Assembly: GCA_944325665.1 (NCBI GenBank)
Contig: CALVAY010000001.1
Coordinates: 62,001 to 126,000 of the forward strand
Source: Candidatus Gastranaerophilales bacterium
GTDB lineage: Bacteria; Cyanobacteriota; Vampirovibrionia; Gastranaerophilales; Gastranaerophilaceae
Reading direction: 5' to 3'
Length of the DNA: 64,000 nucleotides
Below the pieces are notes generated by a model. The model was not told the DNA's origin. It ran no database searches and saw nothing but the letters and a program-made list of their open reading frames with translations. Below are positions 18,478 to 20,765 of the stretch, piece by piece (positions within the stretch are counted from its first letter, which is position 1; each line of letters begins with the position of its first letter). The translations under genes and the position numbers were made by a program.

Positions 18478-18510
18478 GCTTTCTTAAAAGGAGTTTTTAG
18501 AGTTGTAAAT

Positions 18511-18532
18511 AACCCCGCTTTATGGCGGGGTT
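18511..18532 (+). terminator. Terminator after the response regulator
   Basis: Stem AACCCCGC/GCGGGGTT with loop TTTATG, followed by TTATTGTTTTT. Confidence 0.8.
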
Positions 18533-18564
18533 TATTGTTTTTATGTTTGATATTGTACTGATTT

Positions 18565-18977
18565 TGCTTGACTCAATAGCGCTGTCATTGGGAGTGTTGA
18601 TTCGCGTATTAAAAGCCATGTTTTCTTTCTTTTGGTTCTGTTTTCTTTCTTTTTGCATTGGCGTCTGAAACAAAAAGAAAGAAAATGAACAAAGTGGGTT
18701 TAGAGTGTAAAGCCAAATATTATTAAAGGCTCACTATACTCCTGCGGGTCCTCAACCGGCTCACAGCCTCGATTATCCTACGTCGCCTATCAATAGTATC
18801 GTAAATGCCAAACTCGTCGTTTGTCATTTACTCACTCTGGCTTGCGTTTTCGAGCTTCGCTCGGGTACGGTTACGCCCTGTCGGCAAGGCTCTTCGCCTT
18901 CCCGTTCGGGCTTCACACACCTAAGGTTCACTCGCTCTCAAGCAGTGCAGTCGCACTAGCTTTCGAGCTTCGCTCGG
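18565..18977. repeat. Hairpin-rich non-coding island
   Basis: About 410 bp without a credible gene, locally richer in GC than its surroundings. A 15-bp perfect stem runs TTTTCTTTCTTTTTG (18641-18655) with CAAAAAGAAAGAAAA (18671-18685). A 15-nt direct repeat TGTTTTCTTTCTTTT sits at 18619 and 18639. A 17-nt exact repeat TTTCGAGCTTCGCTCGG occurs at 18848-18864 and 18961-18977; each copy folds as CGAGC-TTC-GCTCG. Further small hairpins are AAGGC/GCCTT and CCCG/CGGG near 18886-18910 and AGTGC/GCACT near 18944-18957. The second 17-mer abuts the typA stop codon. Possibly a REP/MITE-like element or a decayed insertion. Confidence 0.55.
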
Positions 18978-20765
18978 TTATTTCTTGAAGTTTAAGTTAG
19001 CCTTTCTCATTCTGACATTCAAAGGTGTAACTTCAACTAATTCGTCATCTGCAATATATTCAAGGCAATCTTCCAAGCTCATAATTTTCGGCGCCTGAAG
19101 TGTTACCATAACATCAGCGGTAGCAGATCTCATATTTGTAAGTTTCTTTGTTTTGCAAACATTAATCGCAAGGTCTTGGGGTCTGTTGCATTCGCCTACA
19201 ATCATGCCTCTATATACCTTTGTTTTTGGTGTTACAAAGAACACACCGCGGTCTTCAAACTGATGAAGCGCATATGGAATTGCCTCGCCGTCTTCAAAAG
19301 CAATAAGCGAACCTGTTCTTTGGCGAGATATGTCGCCTGCGTATTCTCCATAGTGTGAAAAGGTATGGTACATAATACCTTCGCCTTTTGTCATTCTCAC
19401 AAAGTCAGACCTAAAGCCTATAAGCCCTCTTGCAGGAATAAGAAAATCAATGTTTGTGCGTTTTTCGCCTGTTTCCATGTTTTGCATTTGAGCTTTTCTT
19501 GAGGCAAGTTTTTCAATGACAGAACCTGCGTATTCTTGTGGTACGTCAACAATCAGATTTTCATACGGCTCAAGCGTATGCCCGTCTTCTTTTTTAAAGA
19601 TTACTTCAGGTTTTGAAACTGCAAACTCATACCCTTCTCTTCGCATTGTTTCGATTAAAATTCCAAGGTGTAATTCGCCTCTGCCTGAAACTTTGAAAAC
19701 ATCAGTAGAGTCAGTATCTTCAACCCTTAGAGAAACATTTTTTTCCAATTCAAAATAAAGTCTTTTTCTTAACTGTCGGCTTGTTACAAACTTGCCCTCT
19801 TGTCCCGCAAAGGGTGAGTTGTTAACGGAAAAGTTCATCTGAAGTGTCGGTTCGTCAATTTTAATTAAGGGAAGTGCAACGGGATTTGTCAGGCTTGAGA
19901 TTGTTTCCCCTATTTGAATATCTGCAAAGCCTGCAATACCTACGATATCGCCTGCACCTGCTTCTTCAATTTCAACTCTGCCAAGGTCTTTAAAGCCAAA
20001 CAGCTTCATAATCTTGCCTTTTTGCATTGTGCCGTCTGCCTTAATCAGCGTAACTTGTTCACCTGAGTGCAACACGCCGTTTTTAATTCTTCCTATTGCG
20101 ATTCTTCCGACGTAGTCGTTGTAATCAAGAGTTGTTACCTGAAACTGAAGTGTTAAGTCGTCATCAGCCACGGGCGGTTGAATATTTTCCAAAATGCAGT
20201 CCAAAAGCGGAAGCATGTCTTTTTCTTCATCTTCAAGTTCTTTTTTTGCAAACTTATGAAGCGAGCTTGCATAAATTATCGGGAAATCGATTAAATCTTC
20301 TCTGTCGGTTAATTCAGTAAACAAGTCAAAAACTTTATCTAAAGTGCCATTTGGGTCTGCACCTTGTTTGTCAATTTTATTAACCACAACGATAATTTTA
20401 ATACCCAGTTCAAGCGCTTTTGAAAGCACAAAACGGGTTTGCGGCATAGGGCCTTCTTGAGCGTCAACAATAAGCAAAGCACCGTCCACCATGCCTAAAA
20501 CACGCTCCACTTCACCGCCGAAGTCTGCGTGCCCTGGGGTATCCACGACGTTAATTTTAACCCCTTTGTAATTAATTGAAATATTTTTGGATAAAATTGT
20601 AATACCGCGTTCTCTTTCGATATCGTTGTTATCGAGAACTCTTTCTTGAGTTTCCTGATGTTCTTTAAAAACACCCGTTTGACCCAAAAGACAATCAACA
20701 AGAGTTGTTTTACCGTGGTCAACGTGTGCAATAATAGCTATATTTCTGATATTTTTCTTTTTCAT
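18978..20765 (-). CDS. typA: Translational GTPase TypA/BipA
   Basis: A 595-residue GTPase: [15 protein letters not shown] (P-loop), [34 protein letters not shown], and C-terminal [22 protein letters not shown] typical of TypA rather than LepA or EF-G. It acts on the ribosome, often under stress and in 50S assembly. ATG 20765 is chosen because AAGGA lies 9 nt upstream; the frame extends 11 codons further without a better signal. Confidence 0.96.

Follow-up and report, generated by a model that had tools for sequence, protein, structure and literature searches.

The island of about 0.4 kb that separates a response regulator gene from typA in the window analysed here, a 64,000-nucleotide stretch of a Candidatus Gastranaerophilales genome, is in all likelihood a nest of self-folding non-coding repeats, in which one element, module A, represents a family of predicted triple helices and the GC-rich part is made up of genus-specific hairpin modules that turn up in changing combinations. 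The locus itself is ordinary, a pile of repeats, and its interest lies in the triple helix of the A family, which is backed by covariation across multiple species. As a rule, the case for triple helices in bacterial chromosomes consists solely of sequence motifs. Natural versions of module A change both of their pyrimidine arms together, as mirror images of each other, a behavior that neither a hairpin nor a copying error explains. This joint change makes the triple helix testable by the genetics of natural variants. Comparative analysis of these versions provides strong evidence for a selected triple helix in the A family.

Composition and surroundings of the island

An earlier note on this DNA had placed the island between two convergent genes, and this arrangement holds, with the response regulator gene on the plus strand and typA on the minus strand (Table 1). 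The best-matching relatives of the response regulator belong to records named Candidatus Gastranaerophilales or Galligastranaerophilus. The host genome (G000) comprises 1.65 Mb in 30 contigs, with a completeness of 97.19%. Consistent with the previous impression that no coding frame fits, the island lacks any ORF of at least 80 amino acids, and a coding relic was rejected on this basis. No match in the window reached the Rfam gathering score, with the region 18480-18985 giving sub-threshold hits only, and a repeat search revealed no TIR pair at the island ends.

Several features described previously were recovered at precise positions, including a perfect 15-bp stem (18641-18655/18671-18685), a 15-nt direct repeat with a spacing of 20 nt (copies at 18619 and 18639) and an exact 17-nt repeat, TTTCGAGCTTCGCTCGG (18848-18864 and 18961-18977), whose second copy abuts the typA stop codon (18978-18980). 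Five perfect hairpins (stem of at least 5, loop of 3-6) are present in the island; dinucleotide shuffles contained 1.34 ± 1.20 of them, and in 10 of 500 shuffles there were as many as five. The elevated GC content applies to positions 18720-18977 (0.53), but not to positions 18565-18720, whose value of 0.36 equals the window mean. What had been treated as a single island is instead a series of several unrelated elements, and the 15-bp stem and the 20-nt-spaced repeat are parts of one of them, module A.

The suggestion of a repetitive non-coding element is borne out by 20 matches (E <= 0.01) to the query 18560-18980 in the host genome, which hit different parts of the query, and by the spread of the module families over related genomes, so that the sequence is neither single-copy nor unconserved. 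The island query matches 32 of 58 related genomes (host included) and all 15 genomes of the same genus. Exact 14-mers present at least four times in a 416-kb sample of the host genome uncovered few islands, and the copy counts given here therefore rest on similarity searches.

Table 1. Features of the island and its flanking genes (positions refer to the window).
Feature	Start	End	Strand	Remarks
Response regulator gene	17758	18477	+	Left neighbor; domain matches to PF00072 and PF00196 (receiver and LuxR-type DNA-binding domains)
Terminator-like hairpin	18511	18532		AACCCCGC/GCGGGGTT; sole separator of both genes in L053-L055
Degenerate left remnant	18572	18606	+	Other copy matching at G000:C5:99-237
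Module A	18621	18693	+	Predicted Y-Y-R intrastrand triple-helix element; model R1, 76.3 bits, E 2.7e-13
A arm1	18621	18633	+	Predicted pyrimidine third (Hoogsteen) strand; first direct-repeat copy of the earlier note
A basal stem b	18635	18638	+	GTTC; pairs with 18687-18690; b/b' covary
A arm2	18641	18654	+	Pyrimidine Watson-Crick strand
A arm3	18672	18685	+	Purine strand; reverse complement of arm2
A basal stem b'	18687	18690	+	GAAC
Module B1	18740	18787	-	Minus strand GGCGACGTAGGATAATCGAG...CCCGCAGGA; relatives in P12 of RNase P RNA and at other loci
Hairpin	18801	18831		GTAAATGCCAAAC/GTTTGTCATTTAC
Partial Z end	18848	18864	-	First copy of the 17-nt repeat; hairpin CGAGC-TTC-GCTCG
Core hairpin module	18862	18925	-	64 nt; two stems around a conserved C.C mismatch
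Module Z	18926	18977	-	Hairpin AGTGC-AGTC-GCACT and terminal CGAGC-TTC-GCTCG; ends at typA stop codon
typA gene	18978	20798	-	Right neighbor; TIGR01394, 908.6 bits

Mirror covariation in module A

Module A is composed, in this order, of arm1, a hinge with GTTC, arm2, a loop, arm3, a T and GAAC. In the predicted fold, the hairpin formed by arm2 and arm3 would take up arm1 in its groove, where arm1 would run in the same direction as the purine arm and serve as the third strand, and the 4-bp basal stem would close the triple helix below. For comparison across versions, we parsed the collected loci for pyrimidine-purine hairpins preceded by a pyrimidine run that exceeds in length every purine run on the downstream side, obtaining 69 versions with 52 distinct arm1/arm2 pairs from 104 loci. 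The parser accepts only hairpins in which arm3 is the reverse complement of arm2, so that the match between these two arms does not test the fold; what does test it is the mirror relation, along with the basal stem.

In the strict register at the hinge, 39 of the 52 pairs are perfect mirrors and 13 fail, compared with a mean of 4.1 and a maximum of 12 mirror-perfect pairs in 5000 permutations of arm1 among the versions. Owing to the common descent of the versions, neither these counts nor those that follow for the arms and the junction pair can be read as probabilities. When registers from -2 to 2 are admitted, 48 pairs are mirror-perfect (permuted mean 8.7, maximum 18) and four fail, with 21 of the 52 being direct-perfect (permuted mean 5.8, maximum 12). 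Among the 16 pairs with an asymmetric C pattern, the mirror relation is perfect in 15 and the direct relation in none. These pairs comprise eight C patterns, or seven without L137, the sole failing pair, which probably represents a hairpin formed by chance, outside the family. The copy in the window fits at 13 of 13 arm1 positions, although its arms are nearly symmetric, so that this copy alone cannot tell a mirror from a direct relation.

Given the mirror relation, arm1 and the purine arm run in parallel, which places T opposite A-T and C opposite G-C. At neutral pH, C+.G-C triads are weak. Paired swaps preserve the basal stem b/b' (GTTC/GAAC, CTTC/GAAG, CAGC/GCTG, CAAC/GTTG, GTCTA/TAGAC, CTTA/TAAG and GTACA/TGTAC). 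The order of Hoogsteen pyrimidine, pyrimidine and purine strands along one strand is the one that defines class IV of Holder et al. (2015). Mirror covariation together with a covarying basal stem is, at the sequence level, the signature of a single-strand triple helix of this class. The covariance analysis suggested in the earlier note thus reveals covariation in the basal stem and mirror arms of module A and in the stems of the core module described below.

Distribution of module A

The family was searched with a covariance model derived from 21 copies (A2, followed by R1). In a class-wide search (E <= 1e-4, strict filters, at most 14 candidates scored per genome), A was detected in 157 of 382 genomes, representing 29 of 97 genera, and at this threshold it was absent from the other 225, as well as from four listed genomes of the host's genus (G005, G007, G008 and G014). 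Thirty genomes picked from the 157 for divergence and genus spread all match A, with a maximum of 28 copies in G205.

In G042, the hairpin-and-arms core is identical in all 11 fetched copies of A, which occupy different sites, and in most of 12 records the module is located inside a TIR-bounded element. Since some of these copies sit within longer inverted-repeat elements, their sequence context suggests that other transposons can carry A along in this genome. The A-bearing element of G042 (L203-L213) is about 350 bp long and has the inverted repeats ACCGATAATATTTTTTATGTAA and, further out, TTAAGTTAATTTT.

The flanking genes of 54 A loci, based on ORFs predicted by length only, show the directions (+,+) in 15, (-,+) in 12, (+,-) in 10 and (-,-) in 10 cases relative to the module, and in 7 loci the flank on one side could not be assigned. 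Given this absence of a gene-direction bias, a terminator or 3'-UTR role for module A was rejected.

The GC-rich hairpin modules

For the core module, 87 matches were reduced to 47 distinct sequences, 36 of which were aligned and used to build model R2. This model has a single match in the window, the core itself (85.0 bits). Among 35 distinct copies, 97.1% of 348 cells are paired and 61 cells are changed on both sides, compared with 24.7 ± 3.8 in shuffles, none of 500 of which reached such a value. Sliding the partner by 1-3 columns left at most 48.2% of the cells paired, a control that leans towards the proposed structure because this structure was named after viewing the copies. The stems are almost free of wobble pairs, and the loops on the typA-sense strand are mostly of the G...A type (GAA, GAGA, GAAGA, GATGA). 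Folding of this strand relative to shuffles yields z-scores of -3.57 for the core (-28.4 kcal/mol) and -3.77 for Z, with the other strand of the core reaching -23.1 kcal/mol (z -2.63). R2 matches 19 of 58 relatives: each of the 15 genomes of the genus has 5-21 copies, the host having 18, and of the 43 genomes outside it four match, namely G016 (nine copies), G019, G026 and G039.

Among 22 distinct sequences downstream of the Z end, 11 are A-runs of at least 6, so that the other strand reads as a terminator hairpin, a T-run and then Z; by eye, these 11 represent five different terminators, because several are the same site in different species. Two of the remaining neighbors are the end of typA, and nine continue into other modules. 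B1, core and Z are met again elsewhere in other arrangements, frequently placed immediately behind an intrinsic terminator's T-run, and also in an arm of RNase P RNA.

Modules within RNase P RNA

The host genome contains one rnpB match, located at a contig end and cut within an elongated region. When aligned to RF00010, it displays a long insertion, containing a B1-like module, in one arm, which we take to be P12. Between conserved flanks, this arm measures 46-49 nt in G001, G003, G008 and G013, about 78 nt in G006 and 86 nt in G002 (counted by hand), 163 nt in G011, 167 nt in the host, about 167 nt in G007 and G010, and 292 nt in G004; in G005 and G009, it runs into a contig end. Within P12, the R2 core is found twice in G004 and once each in G011 and G009, and in G005 twice on the 5' contig and once beside the 3' half. 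It is always oriented opposite to the plus strand of the window, and its strand is the RNA strand in all four genomes that carry it in P12. Within the rnpB loci, R2 also has matches outside rnpB (L254, L257 at 653-713, L019, and L263 at 343-405). At the default threshold, G012 and G014 gave no rnpB match. In the host, a tRNA gene and rnpB lie close together (L019, 142-230 and 1249-1667).

Short tandem repeats, reportedly described by Vioque, are said to lengthen P12 of RNase P RNA in heterocystous cyanobacteria. Unlike these, the P12 inserts reported here are hairpin modules common to intergenic islands, and the arm varies from about 46 to more than 290 nt across species. The presence of such modules in an essential ribozyme illustrates the extent of invasion that RNase P RNA tolerates in a peripheral arm. 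In cyanobacteria, P12 can be dispensable (PMC2858038).

Filling of the same site in related genomes

Among 80 loci fetched with the response regulator, five (L051-L055) retain a convergent typA directly after it. In L053, L054 and L055, the site is empty and consists of 64-71 bp with one terminator hairpin followed by the typA end. By contrast, L051 (211 bp) and L052 (182 bp) contain other mixtures of modules, and the spacing in the window is 501 bp. With three of five sites empty and two carrying other modules, the site between terminator and typA is filled differently in different species. These empty and differently filled orthologous sites agree with the mobile-element relic considered previously, but the search for a transposase was negative. 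The window shares with L051 and L052 a TypA terminus of ...FKK-stop, whereas in the empty-site loci L053-L055 the frame reads on for several more codons. At the 3' end of an apparent pilC-type gene (judged by eye), module arrays occupy the same intergenic site in at least eight species, with different modules (L013, L177, L188, L193, L197, L199, L200 and L202).

Distant-mode searches of 50,697 phage and 72,556 plasmid records gave no match to the island, nor did viral contigs searched with two patterns, and a phage or plasmid origin was rejected on these grounds.

Proposed origin and spread of the modules

In the reading that we favor, dispersed repeats would have piled up between the shared terminator of the convergent genes and the typA stop codon. 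The modules may spread non-autonomously, with the folded single strand as a substrate, and may survive at sites that tolerate hairpins, such as 3' ends or a peripheral RNA stem; the triple helix of A would form in the cell. With the terminator displaced, the typA transcript would be extended at its 3' end by about 0.4 kb of folded sequence, and the island is likely to have little effect on the host. It is also possible, if rather doubtful, that A is mobile and needs a three-stranded fold of a single strand (RNA or DNA) in order to spread. Selection would then keep arm1, arm2 and arm3 together, with the triple helix being the form that is copied or inserted, and A would be the first repeat family with a triple helix as part of its life cycle.

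Among the candidate mobilizing enzymes, no transposase tied to the modules was found, nor could a target duplication be made out. RVT_1 has no match in the host and is present in 8 of 14 same-genus genomes; as G000 has no RVT_1, a reverse-transcriptase relic (group II intron or other retroelement) was rejected.

The modules might instead have grown neutrally, by replication slippage and hairpin-templated repair, with no mobile step. Such a process would be in keeping with tandem arrays (three 108-bp repeats in G000:C11), with the nested module orders X-core-X and Z-core-Z and with the near absence of wobble pairs from the core. However, the same modules occur at unrelated sites of one genome, identical A elements are found in different flanks, and palindrome correction does not yield mirror repeats. 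We consider neutral growth an unlikely account.

It is quite unlikely that the modules are REP-type elements mobilized by a Y1 tyrosine transposase, or RAYT. REP/REPIN systems with a RAYT (PMC3733652 and PMC3116915) resemble the island in consisting of short palindromic intergenic repeats in arrays, and on its minus strand B1 shows GTAG ahead of an imperfect palindrome, as is typical of GTAG-REPs (PMC3733652). Of the tags of REP/RAYT elements, GTAG or CGTC beside a palindrome, GTAG is seen in B1 only and, by eye, not in core, Z or A. The island also differs in that several families are mixed in it and in that the host has no RAYT gene: although Y1_Tnp genes are present in 10 of 39 relatives, Y1_Tnp (PF01797) has no match in the 97.19%-complete host genome and is found in only 1 of 15 genomes of the genus. 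Moreover, the three RAYT loci inspected carry a different palindrome and none of the window modules. In these loci (L154, L153 and L151, from G002, G015 and G019), Y1_Tnp is accompanied by inverted palindromes of the GTAGGTTGGG type at a spacing of about 280 nt, which probably constitute a REP family with its own RAYT, distinct from the modules of the window.

The mirror symmetry of A might also serve to form H-DNA, or another non-B form, in the duplex, with the hairpin arm being incidental, an explanation that we regard as very unlikely. H-DNA needs a pyrimidine mirror repeat, which the arms of A provide, and by the class scheme in PMC4666352 either strand of A could form a triplex. Against this possibility, arm3 is the reverse complement of arm2 in all counted versions, albeit as a parser requirement, and paired swaps have preserved the basal stem, for which H-DNA has no need. 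In addition, the junction pair is G.T in 34, A.T in 26, G.C in 5, A.C in 0 and another pair in 4 of the 69 versions, as a folded Y-Y-R strand would allow; the presence of G.T without A.C indicates the Y-Y-R strand as the one that folds.

Highly improbable, finally, is a functional structured RNA or typA 3'-UTR element (acting in stability, processing or termination) that is kept for the benefit of the host, because the better-than-shuffled folding of the GC-rich part on the typA-sense strand, the covarying core stems and the orientation of the core along the RNA strand in P12 are set against empty or differently filled typA sites in relatives, the lack of a window match at the Rfam gathering score and the indifference of A to the direction of neighboring genes. 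Based on the state of these sites and the Rfam result, a single functional ncRNA was rejected, and of the structured RNA envisaged in the earlier note, the covarying stems and arms stand, but a functional RNA made of the island as a whole, whose module mix at this site varies between species, is not supported.

Comparison with known repeat systems

The nest of self-folding repeats invites comparison with several systems. Searches of open-licence literature turned up no publication on the repeats themselves. Elhai and colleagues are said to have described, in 2008, small dispersed repeats of cyanobacteria that are very short, nested and mosaic and lack an enzyme of their own. The likeness to the present modules is one of description, and those repeats belong to another cyanobacterial class.

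For module A, the closest counterpart is the intrastrand triplex motif (ITxF) of Holder et al. (2015; PMC4666352). This paper defines class IV by the order Hoogsteen-Y, Y, R, treats both H-DNA and intrastrand forms and describes an E. coli motif that is multi-copy, intergenic and free of strand bias; the motif studied is G/C-rich, of class II, with 9-nt stems, and proteobacterial. Module A likewise has a 5' Hoogsteen pyrimidine domain followed by pyrimidine and purine domains and is multi-copy, intergenic and without strand bias. Judged by these sequence features, it belongs to the class IV intrastrand triplex motifs. Unlike the studied motif, A is A/T-rich, has arms of about 9-17 nt and an added covarying basal stem, and occurs order-wide in the Gastranaerophilales, and its third strand is backed by mirror covariation across versions.

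The repeats probably hinder genome assembly in this poorly cultured order, since they are found at many contig ends: 12 of the 20 host matches are located within 300 bases of one, as expected of repeats that break assemblies. At another contig end (L280, start of G014:C5), tandem GAGCTACCAGGGCA fragments, which resemble part of a tRNA gene but include no whole tRNA according to ARAGORN, alternate with B1.
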